Shown here piece after piece: positions 1 through 24,830 of a DNA stretch of 34,262 nucleotides. The DNA is from Ignavibacteria bacterium (GTDB lineage: Bacteria; Bacteroidota; Ignavibacteria; Tepidaquicellales; Tepidaquicellaceae). Within the stretch, counting starts at the first letter, position 1, and each line of letters starts with the position of its first letter. The stretch spans positions 8,132-42,393 of the forward strand of contig JAEUSI010000009.1 in NCBI GenBank assembly GCA_016788375.1. Reading direction: 5' to 3'. The translations under genes and the position numbers were made by a program. A model generated the notes under the pieces. The model did no database searches and was not told the origin of the DNA. It saw nothing but the letters and a program-made list of their open reading frames with translations.

Positions 1-1
1 A

Positions 2-1225
2 ATAAGACTGCTGGAAAAACAGAATAAGTATGATGTAATAATTTCTGAAATTGGCGGTACTGTCGGTGACATAGAATCTCTTCCGTTTCTAGAAGCTATG
101 AGACAGCTTATGTTTGATGTCGGTAAACACAATTCACTAAGCATTCATGTAACGCTTGTTCCGTATATCAGATCAGCGGGGGAGTTAAAAACGAAACCTA
201 CACAGCATTCTGTAAAGACAATGCTTGAGATCGGAATCCAGCCTGATATATTACTTTGCAGAAGCGAGATGGAAATTTCGCGGGAGATGAAGTCAAAGAT
301 CGGACTCTTCTGCAATATAGAGCCGGAATCCGTTATGCAGGCGCTTGACTCTGATTCGATATATCAGGTACCGCTGAATCTAAGAGGTGAAAGGTTTGAT
401 GATATAGTCCTGAAGAAATTAAATATGAAGACCGGCAAACCAAAACTTAACAACTGGAAGCTGGTTGTAAATAAAATCAGAAACGAATCACGCGATATTA
501 CAATCGGCATTTGCGGGAAATATAATATTGTTCCGGATGCATATAAAAGCATAGTTGAATCATTCATTCATGCCGGAGCATACAATGACGTAAAAGTAAA
601 TTTAAAATGGATAGATTCCGAAAGCATTGAGAAAGGCAAATGCAGCGCAGAAGAAGTATTAAAGGACATTAAGGGTCTGCTTGTATGTCCGGGTTTCGGT
701 GACAGGGGAATTGAGGGTAAAATTCAGACGATAAAATATGTAAGGGAGAAGAAAATTCCTTTTTTCGGAATTTGTCTCGGACTTCAGTGTGCAGTAATAG
801 AATATTCCAGAAATGTATGTAATTTAAAGAATGCAAATTCCGCCGAGTTTAAAGATTCTAAAAATAATGTAATAGATATAATGGAGTATCAGAAGTCTGT
901 GAAAATTAAAGGAGGTTCCATGCGGCTTGGCTCTTATCCGTGCATAATAGAAAAGAATACGCTAGCATACAAATGTTATAAAAAGGAATTTGTAAACGAA
1001 AGACACAGGCACAGATATGAAGTGAATAATAATTTCAGGAAAGTTCTTTCCGAAAACGGACTGATGTTTTCCGGATTATCGCCTGACGGTACCCTTGTTG
1101 AAATGATTGAACTCCCGAAAAGAATTCATCCTTTTTTTATAGCATGTCAGTTTCATCCTGAGTTTAAATCAAGAGTAATAAATCCTCATCCGCTTTTCAG
1201 GGAATTTGTGAGAGCATGCAAATAA
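2..1225 (+). CDS. pyrG: CTP synthase, C-terminal part (5' end outside window)
   Basis: CTP synthase makes CTP from UTP, ATP and glutamine in the cytoplasm. The reading frame is open from base 2, so the gene is cut by the window edge; about 407 residues remain of a family length near 540. The first residues carry the synthetase-domain signature [14 protein letters not shown]. The class I glutamine amidotransferase domain follows, with the oxyanion segment PGFGDRG, the nucleophile Cys in GICLGLQ (Cys codon 773-775), the [10 protein letters not shown] segment, and the catalytic His/Glu in QFHPEF near the C-terminus. An internal ATG at 98 is not the start, because conserved synthetase sequence lies upstream of it. 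The end converges on the next gene across a 47-bp gap with no obvious terminator. The identification is secure. Confidence 0.97.
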
Positions 1226-18645: not shown

Positions 18646-20913
18646 TTATTTTCTGATCACCGCCACTTTTCCTTTTCCAACTTTGCTGCCGTCGCTGTTA
18701 AAAGCAACGATAATGTATATTCCCGTCGCTGCTGGCTGATTCTGCGAATCCATTCCGTCCCAGACTGCAATTCTGCCTCCGGGTGAATCAAATTCCGAAA
18801 CAATGTCCCCTGAAATTGAGATTATCTTAATGGTAGAATTTTCAACGAGTCCGTCGATTTTAAGTTTGACTTCTGAAGGAACCAGATACGGATTCGGTGA
18901 AACGGTGATTTCGTCAAACTCGGCAACAGGCTCAATTGCATCAGTCTGATAAGATGAGAGGCCGTTGTTTGTTCCGAAATATGCTCTGCCGTTATTTTCA
19001 TCCACTGCAACCGTTTTTATCTGATTTGCCAGAATCGGAGACTTTGCCGTGTTGAACTGACCGAGTAAAGTCGAACCGTCTGAAGAAAGATGAAATACCC
19101 CGTTGGTTTCTGTCCCGACCCACTTATCGTTCAATATATCATTCGTAAGAGAAATGCAGTTTTCTGTGAAAGGGACTTTCAGATTTCCGGAAATGATTCC
19201 GAGTTTAACAGCCGGAGGTTTCTGATTCGGATTCTGAATTGCGGCAAAAGGATTATTTATTATAAAAATTCCGTTATTTGTCGCAATCCAGACTTCATTG
19301 TTTTTATCAACAATAACATCATACACATTTGTTACTTCAGCGCCGAAATCGGAATTGCTGTAGAATCCGTAAATATCATCATTAAGGTTAGTGTAAGTAG
19401 AATTTTCATTAAAAAAATAAACACCGGATCTTGTGCCGCCGGAAACTATCCATTTGGTTCCGTATGAATCTATGGCTGTTTCAGATAATGTAGCAGATGT
19501 TATTATTGAAGGATTCGGATAAGCGAACCATTGATTATCACCGAAGTAGGCATATACAGAACTTCCGGAATTTGTTCCGAAAAAAGTTATCCATAATACG
19601 TCATTAGCGTCATATGCTCCTCCATTCGGCACGCAGAAATTAGGATCGTTTGAAATTCCCGGGAGAATGGAATTTGTAGTATTAAAATTTCTGATTTCAG
19701 TTCCGGTTATCAGCGTCGGACCACCGCCGAATCCGAGAGCCCAGACATTTCCGTTACCGGAAATTATTTTCTGAAACCAGTTTGAATTACCGATTTCAGG
19801 ATGAGTAGAAAGATTATAATTTTCCCAGGTACTTCCGTTGAAAGAATAAAATCCGTTAGTCGGCAGTCCGCCTGCCGCCCAGACAGTACTGTTATCATCT
19901 ATCGTTACCTGGCTGAATACATTTGTAAAAGGGCTGTTGGGAAATACATAACCATTTTTCTGAGAAATAATGATTCCGTTTCCTGTCAATCCGGCTATCA
20001 GATTAGAATTATTATATGTGCCGAGTACGGCATAAGAATTAGCATTCAGATACTGAACTATTTCCGAAATATTAGAAGATGTTGTATAATAAATCCTGTC
20101 TCCGGAAATAAAATAAAGTCTTTCACCGGCAGTTTTGATAAATTTTGTGTTTGAATTTGCAACGGAAGGATTGGGGTAAACATACCATTCGGTTAAATCG
20201 AAATAGCAGTATCCTGTCAGCGATCCTGCAAATATTTTGTTGTCAAATGCTTCAATTGTTTTCACGTCTGCATTCATAAACAGCAGATTAAAATTACTCC
20301 ATGCTGACGGATCATTCAGATTTGAACTGAGATAATTTGCATAAGCCACGCCGGATTTTGTTGCAGCATATAATACATTGCCGTTTAAAGCAAGAGAATA
20401 CACAGGCGTATTGATTGTAAATGTTCCCAGTTTATAATACGGCGCGTCAATGAAGTTGAAGTTTACAGTGGATACTTTCTGAATCCCGTATCCGGTTGCA
20501 ATATACATGTAATTTCCTTCGGGAAGCAGAAAATTTATTATTTTATTTGCTTCAGAAGAATTTTTTATGTCATAAATGTACTTCCAGGTGGAGTTTGTAA
20601 GATTCAGTATTGAAACAGAGCCGTCGGAAGCGCCGATCCACAGTCGTCTCTGATTATCTATTGTCAGCGCAGTCAGGTCATTATTAACCAGACCGTTTAG
20701 ATTAGTATATTTTGCAATTACAGTTTCAGTTGCAATATTAACGGAATACAATCCGCCTTTTGAGGCACAGTAAACTGTATTTGTAACAGGATCGGTTGAC
20801 ACAGAAGTAATATTCTTATAATCCGTAAGATTTTCCCATTTGGAATTCTGAGAGTATGTATCCGCACTTAATATCAGAAACAGGGATATGAAAAGAAAAA
20901 ATATTTTCGGCAT
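18646..20913 (-). CDS. PorZ-like T9SS component: beta-propeller protein with C-terminal CTD-like domain
   Basis: The 755-residue protein has a signal peptide (about 1-21). It starts KWENLTDYKNITSVSTDP and NTVYCASKGGLYSVN, then NGLVNNDLTALTIDN and LWIGASDGSVSIL, the propeller-blade pattern of two-component-regulator-type propellers. More blades follow to about residue 640, including VWAAGG, LWITFFG and VWIATNNGIFI. The last 87 residues, VSPNPYLVPSEVKLKIDGL through SGDIVSEF, GGRIAVWDG and ATGIYIIVAF, form a CTD-like beta sandwich. This order matches PorZ, the surface T9SS attachment-complex protein that binds A-LPS and assists PorU in other Bacteroidota. A secreted propeller cargo with a sorting tail is the alternative. 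hisA follows after 20 bases. Confidence 0.7.
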   Translation of the reverse strand: MPKIFFLFISLFLILSADTYSQNSKWENLTDYKNITSVSTDPVTNTVYCASKGGLYSVNIATETVIAKYTNLNGLVNNDLTALTIDNQRRLWIGASDGSVSILNLTNSTWKYIYDIKNSSEANKIINFLLPEGNYMYIATGYGIQKVSTVNFNFIDAPYYKLGTFTINTPVYSLALNGNVLYAATKSGVAYANYLSSNLNDPSAWSNFNLLFMNADVKTIEAFDNKIFAGSLTGYCYFDLTEWYVYPNPSVANSNTKFIKTAGERLYFISGDRIYYTTSSNISEIVQYLNANSYAVLGTYNNSNLIAGLTGNGIIISQKNGYVFPNSPFTNVFSQVTIDDNSTVWAAGGLPTNGFYSFNGSTWENYNLSTHPEIGNSNWFQKIISGNGNVWALGFGGGPTLITGTEIRNFNTTNSILPGISNDPNFCVPNGGAYDANDVLWITFFGTNSGSSVYAYFGDNQWFAYPNPSIITSATLSETAIDSYGTKWIVSGGTRSGVYFFNENSTYTNLNDDIYGFYSNSDFGAEVTNVYDVIVDKNNEVWIATNNGIFIINNPFAAIQNPNQKPPAVKLGIISGNLKVPFTENCISLTNDILNDKWVGTETNGVFHLSSDGSTLLGQFNTAKSPILANQIKTVAVDENNGRAYFGTNNGLSSYQTDAIEPVAEFDEITVSPNPYLVPSEVKLKIDGLVENSTIKIISISGDIVSEFDSPGGRIAVWDGMDSQNQPAATGIYIIVAFNSDGSKVGKGKVAVIRK

Positions 20914-21133: not shown

Positions 21134-22294
21134 TTAAAAATAAAAATGAAAATTCCACTGAAACTCGTTATTCTTTATCTTTGGAGTTTCATTTACAAAT
21201 CTGACCATAATTTCCGTTTCAAATCCGTAAAACGGATACGCGGCAAATCCCGTGCTGACTCTTGTTATATCATCATCTGGAACATCCCTGTTCTTATCAT
21301 AAATCTCATACTGAAACCGCAGCTCAAGACCTTTGAGAATTATAATATCAAGTTCATTGAAATTATAAAATGATCTTCTCATCGGAAAGTCAGATGTATT
21401 CTGTTCAAAATCAACTTCAGAAAGCAGCGCTATGGTTTTAAGAAAACCGAATCTTGCATTAGCCCCGAAAGACTGTTTCAAAGCGGTAATTACTCCGGTA
21501 AAAGTACTGTCATAAGTATTAAATGGATTATTCATAAATGAACCGCCGAAGTTTATGTTGAAAAAGTATTTCTCAAAAGCAAAATTAAAATTTGTATTTG
21601 CAATCAGCATCTTGTGAGGATCAAATCCAGAAAATTCCGATGACTGAGGCGGATTATAAAGTCCGGCATTCAGCGCAAACCATCCCGGATTTATTCCGAG
21701 TTCAAATCCGGTATTGGCATTGTCCGGAGCATTGAGAAGGTATTTTCTCTGATAAGCTCTGTGCTCCACAATCCGGATCCCGTATTCAGGCTTAAACCTT
21801 CCTGCTTTGAAAAATAAATTTGCCGGAAGATTCGAAAGCATACCGAATACTTCATACTCTGTTTCATATCCCGGAACAATTATTCCCGAAGATGCATAAA
21901 TATTCAGAATTTTATTTATCTGAGCATTAAAATAAATTGAACCCTGCATTGCAAGGAATGCATTGTAGTTCGAGTAACTCTTTGCTGTGTCTGCTCTCTC
22001 ATTGTCAACCTGTGCAACTCTTACATCCGATCCGAGCGTAATGTCTTTAGTGATTTTCGGAGAAAACTCGGTTTTACCCGCAAGCTTTTTGAATAAATCC
22101 ATATTCAGATTATTTTTTGCGTAAAAATTTCCGCCTCCGTTTCTCATTCCTCCTCCGTCTGGATTGACATGGCAGTCAATACACATGTTTCCGGAAAGCG
22201 CTGCGAATTTCGGATAGGAAAATACCTTTGACTGCAAGGAAGTTCCGAAAATAAACAATGTAATTAAAACGGCTGACCTGTAGAGGTTTTTCAT
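21134..22294 (-). CDS. Monoheme c-type cytochrome fused to an outer-membrane beta-barrel (Cyc2-like architecture)
   Basis: The 386-residue protein has a signal peptide (about 1-26). Right after it comes FAALSGNMCIDCHVNPDGGGMRNGGG with one haem-binding CIDCH (Cys38, Cys41, His42). From about residue 75 the sequence alternates as barrel strands do, for example DVRVAQVDN, LAMQGSIYFNAQI, NLFFKAGRFKPEYGIRI and ALNAGLYNPP, and it ends on an aromatic strand, WNFHFYF, as outer-membrane proteins do. Cyc2 iron oxidases share this order of one small haem domain and one porin, and would carry electrons across the outer membrane; a similar role is inferred here, not shown. It is the last gene of the minus-strand set, 35 bases after a small lipoprotein gene. 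Confidence 0.72.
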   Translation of the reverse strand: MKNLYRSAVLITLFIFGTSLQSKVFSYPKFAALSGNMCIDCHVNPDGGGMRNGGGNFYAKNNLNMDLFKKLAGKTEFSPKITKDITLGSDVRVAQVDNERADTAKSYSNYNAFLAMQGSIYFNAQINKILNIYASSGIIVPGYETEYEVFGMLSNLPANLFFKAGRFKPEYGIRIVEHRAYQRKYLLNAPDNANTGFELGINPGWFALNAGLYNPPQSSEFSGFDPHKMLIANTNFNFAFEKYFFNINFGGSFMNNPFNTYDSTFTGVITALKQSFGANARFGFLKTIALLSEVDFEQNTSDFPMRRSFYNFNELDIIILKGLELRFQYEIYDKNRDVPDDDITRVSTGFAAYPFYGFETEIMVRFVNETPKIKNNEFQWNFHFYF

Positions 22295-22329: not shown

Positions 22330-22764
22330 TTAATTTTTCTTTGTGATTTTTATAAAACCGCCTGTCAACTTTCCTCTGAAAATCGAAAAAGTCCAGTCTC
22401 CGGATAAACTGCTCCTGTTTATTTTCAGCCTCCAGAAAACATTTGAATCGGCAATACGGGGATTGGTATTTATGAATACAGTTTTTTCTGACTTATTTAC
22501 ATCACCTGAAAATTCACCGTTCATAGATGAATATCCTTCAAAATCCTTTCTTGCGACATCGGTGAACTCGTATGTTCCCGATATCTTATCGTTTTCGTAA
22601 TTTGTAACGTTGAGTATTCCGGATGCAATTTTTACTCCCGAACTGTCTTTCATTACAAATTTATATTTTCCCTTTCCGAATGTAAATCCCGTGTCACTGA
22701 TTCCCGACGAACATCCGTAAGTTGTTATTAATACTAAAGTAATAAAGAAAAATATTTTTTTCAT
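22330..22764 (-). CDS. Small putative lipoprotein, function unknown
   Basis: The 144-residue product has a lipoprotein-like signal, MKKIFFFITLVLITTYGC, with the probable lipidated Cys at 18; the lipobox TYGC is not ideal. The mature part is beta-rich (KGKYKFVMKDSSGVKIASGIL, SGTYEFTDV, LKINRSSLSGDWTFSIFRGKLTGGFIKI), as in small beta-barrel or lipocalin-like envelope proteins. I recognise no family. It sits between the T9SS-secreted protein (20 bases upstream) and the cytochrome-barrel fusion (35 bases downstream) and is probably on the same transcript, so an accessory role to either is possible. Confidence 0.75.
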   Translation of the reverse strand: MKKIFFFITLVLITTYGCSSGISDTGFTFGKGKYKFVMKDSSGVKIASGILNVTNYENDKISGTYEFTDVARKDFEGYSSMNGEFSGDVNKSEKTVFINTNPRIADSNVFWRLKINRSSLSGDWTFSIFRGKLTGGFIKITKKN

Positions 22765-22784: not shown

Positions 22785-24830
22785 TTATTTAAGTAAAATC
22801 ATTTTCTTTGTATCAGTAAATCCTTCGGTTTTTAAAGTGCAAAAATATACACCGCTGGGAAGGTTTCCCGCATTAAAACTGACACTGTATTTTCCGGCCT
22901 GCTGAATTTCATTTACAAGCACGGCAGTTTCCTTACCGAGCATATCATAAACTATGAGAGATACTGTTCCGCGCAAAGGAATTTCATAATTAATATTTGT
23001 CGCCGGATTAAACGGATTCGGATAATTCTGATTCAGAGAATATCCCGGGATAATATTTGTGCTGTTATTATTGATATCAACAAAACTCGAAAGAGGAAAG
23101 CTGAATGTTTTCCACTGTGTAAAATTAGTTGGAATAAAAAATTGAGAAGTCTGAGGAGCAGTTGCAAGATTCAGACCGCCTTTCCTGAAAATTTCGGACG
23201 GAAAAGTCTGACCGCCGTCGGTGGAGATTCTCACAATAAGGCTGTCAATGTATCCGTTTGTGCTATACTGAGCATAAGCATAATCGAATCTGACTGTATC
23301 GCTTGCAAGTAATCCGGTATATCTTTTAGAATACATTGAATCCCTTTGTCCCGGGAAATTGTAGTCAAAGAAGTTCATTATTACCGACTTAGTCCCGCCG
23401 AATGAAGGTCCGTTTACGCCTGAGTACTGTTTGAATGTAATAAATCCGTCCTGATTAAATACTTTCCAGCCGAGCGGAGGGAAATATGCTTCGAACATTT
23501 CCAGATTAAGCGCCGTCTGAATACTGTCTGCAATTAATGTTTCCCGCTTTCCGCTGTACGAATATAAAACTTCACTTCTTATCTGACCTGAAGTTCCCCT
23601 CCGGGTATTTTCCGTATTGCTCAATGTAATGTTTCTGCTTTTTGCGCAGTTCATAATTTCCTTTGTATCGTCATTTTGTATATAAACAGTTGTATAAAGC
23701 ATTGAATCTATCCAGTACGGCTGTTTGTAATAAGTATATGAAAATTCATAATTTCCGGCTGCCCGCGGAACTTCAATTCCCGACGAATCAGGATAAAATT
23801 CCCTGAATACATCAAAGAAATTAGTTTCGCCATTTGCTGCCGTGGACTGGATGTATCTTTCAACAGCATTGATTCTTAATCTGTAATTTCCCTGCTGAAG
23901 AGATGAAGAAATATTTACCTTAATTAATGCTCTTACCGAATCTTCGCCGGCATTTTCATCCTGAACGGTAATATTCACCGGCGTTCCGTAATTAAGTCTC
24001 TGATAATAAGGAGTGTACAAATTTGAACTGTCGCCGTAAGGTATAAGCACTTTGTTTCTTCCGTCGGCAATGGTATATGGCACGCTCTGATTATAATAAT
24101 ACCTCCATCTGATCTGATTCTGAACGGGATTCTGAAGATAAAATGAATCTACTCCTGAAGATCCCAGAGGCAGATGATATTTTATCGCGCATACTGACCC
24201 GATATTAAGATTCACGAATTCATCAAGACCTGGATTGTTGTTCGCGCACGCAGGACTTGCATTGGATGTAAACTCCTCATACAATACATTCCTTCTGTAA
24301 CCCGGAAGGATTATTGAATACTGATTAAATAAATCATTAACGGTATTTGAGTCTGCTCTGAAAAAAGTATAGGCTCTGATTAACATCGGCGTTCCGACTG
24401 TTGCCGTATATTTTTTGAATGTCGGAGTTACAGTCTCGGAATTTGCCATCAGCAGATAAAATGCGCTGTCAATGTATTCCGGAAAATTTATTGACAGATA
24501 AACCTTTACGGAATCTGCCGCCAGCCTGCCGATATTTGTTACGGTTACCTGAGGTGATATCGTATCTTCGCCGTTGGGAAAAAAAGCATAGCTGGTGTCA
24601 TAAGGAATGTTTATTACGGATGTGACTGTGATATCATACTCTTTCTGTATCCCTGTCATGACATTGTCGATATAGAGATTGTTGCCGTATCCGTTATAAG
24701 TTACAAACTCCAGGACAATATCCCTTGAAGCCGGTGATTCAGGATTATTGTCCCTGCTTAAATCCGAAAATGAAATGAACAGGAAAGCGCACATAATAAA
24801 TATCATCGAAATGAAAATCAGTTTCTTCAT
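22785..24830 (-). CDS. T9SS-secreted Omp28-like protein with type A sorting domain
   Basis: The 681-residue protein has a signal peptide (about 1-22). Residues about 35-165 look like an immunoglobulin-like or CARDB-like domain (QVTVTNIGRLAADSVKVYLSI). Residues about 180-400 resemble Omp28: VLYEEFTSNASPACANNNP with Cys195, IKYHLPL, then a Tyr-rich helix and YTIADGRN. A beta-rich adhesin-like region follows, with a vicinal IRISTDGGQTFPSEIF segment. The last 82 residues, NQNYPNPFNP through GKYSVSFNAGNLPSGVYFCTL to KKMILLK, are a type A T9SS sorting domain, which directs export and surface attachment. Its role is unknown. A lipoprotein gene follows after 20 bases. Confidence 0.85.
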   Translation of the reverse strand: MKKLIFISMIFIMCAFLFISFSDLSRDNNPESPASRDIVLEFVTYNGYGNNLYIDNVMTGIQKEYDITVTSVINIPYDTSYAFFPNGEDTISPQVTVTNIGRLAADSVKVYLSINFPEYIDSAFYLLMANSETVTPTFKKYTATVGTPMLIRAYTFFRADSNTVNDLFNQYSIILPGYRRNVLYEEFTSNASPACANNNPGLDEFVNLNIGSVCAIKYHLPLGSSGVDSFYLQNPVQNQIRWRYYYNQSVPYTIADGRNKVLIPYGDSSNLYTPYYQRLNYGTPVNITVQDENAGEDSVRALIKVNISSSLQQGNYRLRINAVERYIQSTAANGETNFFDVFREFYPDSSGIEVPRAAGNYEFSYTYYKQPYWIDSMLYTTVYIQNDDTKEIMNCAKSRNITLSNTENTRRGTSGQIRSEVLYSYSGKRETLIADSIQTALNLEMFEAYFPPLGWKVFNQDGFITFKQYSGVNGPSFGGTKSVIMNFFDYNFPGQRDSMYSKRYTGLLASDTVRFDYAYAQYSTNGYIDSLIVRISTDGGQTFPSEIFRKGGLNLATAPQTSQFFIPTNFTQWKTFSFPLSSFVDINNNSTNIIPGYSLNQNYPNPFNPATNINYEIPLRGTVSLIVYDMLGKETAVLVNEIQQAGKYSVSFNAGNLPSGVYFCTLKTEGFTDTKKMILLK

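Follow-up and report, generated by a model that had tools for sequence, protein, structure and literature searches.

A widespread family of monohaem porins in Ignavibacteria, probable minimal electron conduits through the outer membrane

The window, a stretch of 34,262 nucleotides from an Ignavibacteria genome, holds a gene whose product joins a single CXXCH motif to a predicted outer-membrane barrel. The question raised by this locus is whether one haem in a porin can pass electrons through the outer membrane, and which partners would serve it. To our knowledge, single-haem outer-membrane conduits have so far been known essentially from Cyc2.

The gene product and its family

The features of the locus are listed in Table 1. 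The cytochrome-porin product starts with the signal peptide MKNLYRSAVLITLFIFGTSLQSKVFS, the limits of which were judged by eye from the sequence, and the mature protein begins with YPKFAALSGNMCIDCHVNPDGGGMRNGGG. As read in the earlier note, a single CIDCH follows closely, about 12 residues past the likely signal-peptide end. It lies in a Gly-rich haem loop and contains both of the two cysteines of the protein. The gene is single-copy in the genome, which also encodes cytochrome c assembly proteins, a point in favor of the haem and of electron conduction. Multihaem cytochrome identity was considered and dropped. As judged from its sequence, the protein is an outer-membrane porin with a single predicted covalently held haem at its N-terminal start, which would be attached to CIDCH.

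Table 1. Positions in the window of the porin gene, its predicted parts and the upstream lipoprotein gene
Feature	Position	Strand	Basis or remark
Monohaem cytochrome-porin fusion gene	21134..22294	(-)	Open frame, 386 aa
Predicted signal peptide, residues 1-26	22217..22294	(-)	Hydrophobic N-terminus; conserved YPxF directly after
Predicted haem domain, residues 27-83	22046..22216	(-)	PxFAxxxGxxCxxCHxNPxGGGxRNxxG; hhalign match to Cyc2 haem domain
CIDCH, putative haem c attachment motif, residues 38-42	22169..22183	(-)	Invariant in 75/75 members
Predicted 16-strand beta-barrel, residues 84-386	21137..22045	(-)	AF2 model, Foldseek, Porin_O_P-type profile match
Model strands 1-8			84-98, 110-125, 130-140, 144-156, 160-167, 194-201, 206-214, 229-240
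Model strands 9-16			245-261, 268-284, 288-299, 306-320, 323-333, 342-355, 358-369, 374-385
Loop between strands 5 and 6, residues 168-193	21716..21793	(-)	Model strand limits; holds Gly172, His178, Arg183
His178 codon	21761..21763	(-)	Candidate distal haem ligand; H in 73/75, M in 2/75
Met116 codon, strand 2	21947..21949	(-)	Second candidate ligand; invariant in 75/75
Small lipoprotein gene, 144 aa, directly upstream	22330..22764	(-)	Same-strand homologue at -1 or -2, 17 loci

The porin gene was present in 67 of the 99 genomes of relatives searched. The family profile matched 134 of the 393 genomes of the phylum, the weaker matches being Cyc2-like proteins or plain porins, and the closest named relatives were Ignavibacteria or Bacteroidetes MAGs (about 60% identity). 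Reduction at 80% identity left 75 full-length non-redundant members, all with exactly one CXXCH at the aligned place, for which reason a chance CXXCH was dropped; members that had lost the motif, named in the earlier note as evidence that would count against its proposal, were not found among them. Invariant or near-invariant residues of the 75-member alignment were P28, C38, C41, H42, G47, R51, G55, G88, and R92, and in the barrel part M116, G165, P169, G172, H178, G196, G250, and G349. The C-terminal residue was Y, F, L or I across the family proteins.

The window protein had no match in Pfam or NCBIfam, and single family members touched Porin_4 (best 1.9e-6), Porin_O_P (5e-4), and OMP_b-brl in Pfam. 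A PDB sequence search with the window protein and the family profile gave chance matches only. Where plasmids and phage isolates were searched, they yielded no relatives, either of the window protein or of its counterparts on virus contigs (see below), and a guessed proteobacterial query (NCxSCHxSPxGGG) had no match on plasmids. Literature searches in an open-access library gave no description of the present family or of its Rieske operon. Monohaem porins of this kind are widespread in Ignavibacteria and their relatives and form a family without a name.

The barrel and the comparison with Cyc2

The C-terminal ~303 residues contained 20 beta-amphipathic windows, as compared with 11.2 ± 2.5 in shuffles, and the family-averaged hydrophobic alternation resolved about 16 separate amphipathic segments, above shuffled controls. 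AlphaFold run with four close sequences reached a pLDDT of 29.6, and a usable fold was obtained after two distant relatives from virus contigs had been added. The model from these six input sequences had exactly 16 strands at a mean pLDDT of 57.9 and pTM of 0.58, a quality reached by one of five models only and with the haem segment below pLDDT 50. The modelled barrel was porin-like, with short turns on the termini (periplasmic) side and mostly longer loops opposite. In Foldseek searches against the PDB, it matched OmpF, OmpC, OmpM1, and chitoporin at about 1e-8 (TM 0.5-0.6). The low-confidence model thus places the barrel with the 16-strand OmpF/OmpC type, in agreement with the C-terminal barrel proposed earlier, for which structure prediction had been suggested as the check.

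The family profile also matched haem-less proteins, in its barrel half only. One such porin, matched at 1.6e-10, was itself recognized as Pfam Porin_O_P at 6e-14, and two further ones adjoin PstS-like genes (PstS identified by eye). When the family barrel was aligned with three haem-less porins by hhalign, the probability was 97.6 over 184 columns; the window protein itself stayed below the Pfam gathering score for Porin_O_P. By profile, the barrel appears closest to those of phosphate-selective (OprP-type) porins. Porin_O_P (PF07396) porins have a homologous barrel and the general 16-strand porins OmpF and OmpC the same fold, both without the haem domain.

Loop 168-193 is placed like L3, the constriction loop that folds inwards in general porins, and would lie in the lumen. 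The near-invariant His178 in this loop is the best candidate for the distal haem ligand, as it is replaced by Met alone, a substitution in line with an axial haem ligand.

Cyc2 is defined by AXPXFAR[QK][TY] upstream and PXL downstream of CXXCH (Keffer et al., PMC8406198). For comparison, homologues were taken from plasmids and combined with true Cyc2 and a second Cyc2-like type from other genomes of the class. The mature family (without signal peptide) aligned with this set by hhalign at a probability of 94.3 (E 1e-7), nearly all of it in the haem segment, whereas the unrelated monohaem family PSCyt1, used as a control, gave 3.6. The two barrels were not alignable by hhalign (probability 0.4), and confident similarity was confined to the haem segment rather than extending over the whole length.

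Cyc2 of Acidithiobacillus and Mariprofundus (PMC8406198) and the monohaem porin share a signal peptide, a single N-terminal CXXCH with PxFAxxTG just upstream, an outer-membrane barrel of about 16 strands, and a c-type cytochrome gene often nearby. A length of at least 365 aa and about 16 barrel strands are expected of Cyc2, and the window protein has 386 aa and 16 strands in the low-confidence model. In contrast to Cyc2, the monohaem porin lacks FAR[QK][TY] and PxL and has NPxGGGxRNxxG in their place. Upstream of the haem motif, the window protein reads YPKFAALSG and the family PRFAxxTG, so that P, F, A, and TG are kept, while R and [QK] are absent; four residues after CXXCH, where Cyc2 has PXL, the window protein reads CIDCHVNPDGGGMRN. 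The partner genes also differ, being Rieske/MtrC-like for the monohaem porin and Cyc1 for Cyc2. A search of the window's genome with the profile of the Cyc2 set, run without a positive control, gave no match at E<=1e-3.

Because both defining motifs are absent, the protein is considered Cyc2-like and not Cyc2. On these alignments, it has a haem segment akin to that found in Cyc2, while in its barrel it stands nearer to Porin_O_P porins than to Cyc2. The resemblance in architecture to Cyc2 put forward in the earlier note was upheld, and the suspicion that the family is a separate one was supported, with no Pfam or NCBIfam model covering it.

The second Cyc2-like type reads AIPAFARKYxxxCxxCHxxxPKLKPFGxEF (384-393 aa; L115 1291-3842, L116 1415-3938, L127 150-2675). 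In all three loci, a gene for a four-CXXCH c554-like protein of 446-457 aa was located directly upstream.

Gene neighbourhoods and the Rieske partner

No redox gene adjoins the porin in the window, where its neighbors are the lipoprotein and T9SS proteins, and this counts against electron conduction. The 144-aa lipoprotein is a probable operon partner of the porin in the window's family. The T9SS neighbors are the type IX secretion component PorZ, encoded at 18646-20913 (NF052228, 7e-106), and an Omp28-like protein with a T9SS tail, encoded at 22785-24830.

Across 79 loci, Rieske or CXXCH proteins made up 58 of the 215 operon-like neighbors vs 11 of the 557 other genes (odds ratio 18), a statistic that ignores phylogeny and in which a few counted neighbors are second porin copies. 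Many families, f2, f6, f12, and f19 among them, had no redox neighbor, again a point against conduction. In two genera of the window's family, a TAT-type Rieske gene lies between the lipoprotein and the porin, and in some other families a Rieske gene was found one to three genes downstream of the porin. PSCyt1-type monohaem cytochromes or T9SS-tailed Temptin_C CXXCH proteins were the neighbors in other families. The Rieske neighbors had Pfam matches of 1e-7 to 2e-16, with the ligands CxH..CxxH invariant in 17.

The fullest gene order, multihaem lipoprotein (5-6 CXXCH), monohaem porin and Rieske, was observed in seven genomes of one family (f18), with a small cytochrome c next in most and a 13-haem cytochrome in three. 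One of these multihaem lipoproteins was scanned and proved MtrC/MtrF-like (PF22113 at 7e-13). In one genome (L148), the multihaem-porin-Rieske set was tandemly duplicated.

Within the window's two families, 30 genomes had the porin together with a strong Rieske match, 9 had neither, and 3 were discordant (30/1/2/9; p=1.2e-6, phylogeny likewise ignored). The porin and the TAT-type Rieske co-occur there with unlinked cases included, and in the window's genome the Rieske gene is on another contig than the porin.

In two close relatives (L183 6253-7432, L184 6229-7426), the TAT-type Rieske gene is preceded by that of a plastocyanin-like copper protein with a T9SS tail, which may be a further carrier; its Pfam match in L183 was at the cut-off. 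On contig C77 of the window's genome (L182, 2203-11660), multihaem genes are densely clustered. The cluster encodes proteins with 18, 17, and 14 CXXCH motifs, two c554-like ones with three CXXCH each, a barrel-like protein of 429 aa, and a hexahaem lipoprotein, and is likely a separate extracellular electron transfer system.

Electron transfer and other explanations

As redox genes are often found beside the porin genes of the family, the most probable role of the monohaem porin is that of a minimal wire that takes electrons through the outer membrane, with a Rieske protein serving it from the periplasm. This carrier, most likely the TAT-exported Rieske [2Fe-2S] protein of the same genomes, would exchange electrons with a haem seated at or within the periplasmic opening of the 16-strand barrel. 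Through the barrel, the haem would be accessible from outside, either to a partner on the outer surface or to a small redox compound in solution; in some relatives, that surface partner may be a multihaem lipoprotein of the MtrC/F-like kind or a CXXCH protein displayed by the T9SS. The haem would lie within the lumen, where His178 (or Met116) would serve as the distal ligand, and electrons would cross the membrane. The conduit role suggested in the earlier note gains indirect support from redox neighbourhoods and Rieske co-occurrence, but none from the genes adjacent in the window. A fuller scheme is more tentative and less likely than not: a distinct class of single-haem conduits through the outer membrane, occurring across Ignavibacteria and relatives, in which the haem plugs a 16-strand porin periplasmically, is ligated from L3 (by His178, sometimes Met) and links a soluble Rieske protein to surface multihaem or T9SS-displayed cytochromes, with phages carrying relatives together with YceI.

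Pcc-type clusters are known from Ignavibacteria, some of which reduce Fe(III) (PMC4245776, PMC6137239), and electron export via the monohaem porin would fit with this. MtrCAB and Pcc complexes likewise conduct electrons across the outer membrane, and an MtrC/F-like lipoprotein neighbors the monohaem porin in one family. Their separate multihaem cytochromes sit in a larger (26-strand) barrel, whereas the monohaem porin has one haem on the barrel polypeptide itself. An MtrB-type barrel was considered and dropped, and with one haem motif, 16 strands, and one polypeptide, the protein does not have the make-up of an MtrAB or Pcc complex.

A Cyc2-type Fe(II) oxidase, in which dissolved ferrous iron enters the barrel and the haem takes its electron, is improbable here. 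The architecture and the related haem domain would suit it, as would a dissolved donor in a small pore (argument of PMC8406198) and the FeGenie 'Cyc2' matches of a deep-mine study, in which iron oxidation and reduction potential were assigned to Ignavibacteriales (PMC8478452). Against it stand the missing Cyc2-defining motifs, the unmatched Cyc2 profile in the window's genome (for which the search had no positive control), the separate genes by which true Cyc2 and a further Cyc2-like type are encoded within the class, and the commonness of the family across the class, at odds with a rare specialist trait. Iron as the substrate, offered as one inference in the earlier note, was not borne out: the search of the window's genome turned up no Cyc2, and the sole link to iron is those FeGenie calls, which may or may not belong to the monohaem-porin family.

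Two further explanations concern the haem itself. The CXXCH could be a haem-free, structural or metal-binding loop, making the protein an ordinary porin with a small N-terminal plug; CxxCHxNPxGGGxRNxxG does recur in T9SS-exported Temptin_C proteins, and that domain takes its name, as far as we know, from a secreted protein of eukaryotes, in which haem c would not be expected. This is unlikely given that Cys, Cys, and His are all invariant, that the segment is akin to haem-carrying Cyc2, and that the gene neighbourhoods are redox ones. It is just as doubtful that the porin is redox-gated or redox-sensing, with the haem or the L3 ligand opening and closing the pore for a solute instead of passing electrons across the membrane. 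Gating would agree with a barrel akin to those of phosphate-selective porins, with the conserved histidine in the loop that constricts porins, and with the solo gene in many genomes, but an operon that recurs and also encodes multihaem cytochromes, Rieske, and cytochrome c exceeds the needs of a sensor.

If the monohaem porin does conduct electrons, its family would be a second one of single-haem conduits. As the family is common in a class whose members are mostly heterotrophic, the range of organisms capable of passing electrons through the outer membrane would be wider. It might then also explain some of the marker-gene calls of 'Cyc2' in Ignavibacteriales. With 386 residues, the protein makes it directly testable how one haem serves a whole membrane.

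The T9SS-exported CXXCH proteins with Temptin_C (PF24784) have a CxxCHxxPxGGGxRNxFG loop, with 52% identity to the porin over 21 columns, and a gene of this type lies next door to the porin in several loci of one family. Unlike the monohaem porin, they have no barrel and are surface-secreted.

On three virus contigs (L058/L151, IMGVR_UViG_3300049828_000506; L059/L149, IMGVR_UViG_3300028840_000918; L191, IMGVR_UViG_3300010403_000013), a YceI-like gene is directly followed by a distant porin relative (CxxCHxSPxGGG, 326-371 aa). The YceI was Pfam PF04264 in the two contigs scanned, M116 and H178 were kept in the two relatives aligned, and the two porins scanned had no PHROG match. Since terminase and virion genes (L059) and a tail sheath gene (L058) are located within kilobases of the porin relative, phages seem to carry a monohaem porin relative beside YceI. 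In the same class as the window, YceI-like proteins were also found near CxxCHxNPxGGGxRNxFG proteins (L117 830-3678, with Temptin_C and YceI identified by Pfam; L119 400-3571, by eye), hinting at a recurring link of YceI with the CxxCHxNPxGGG-type haem loop.
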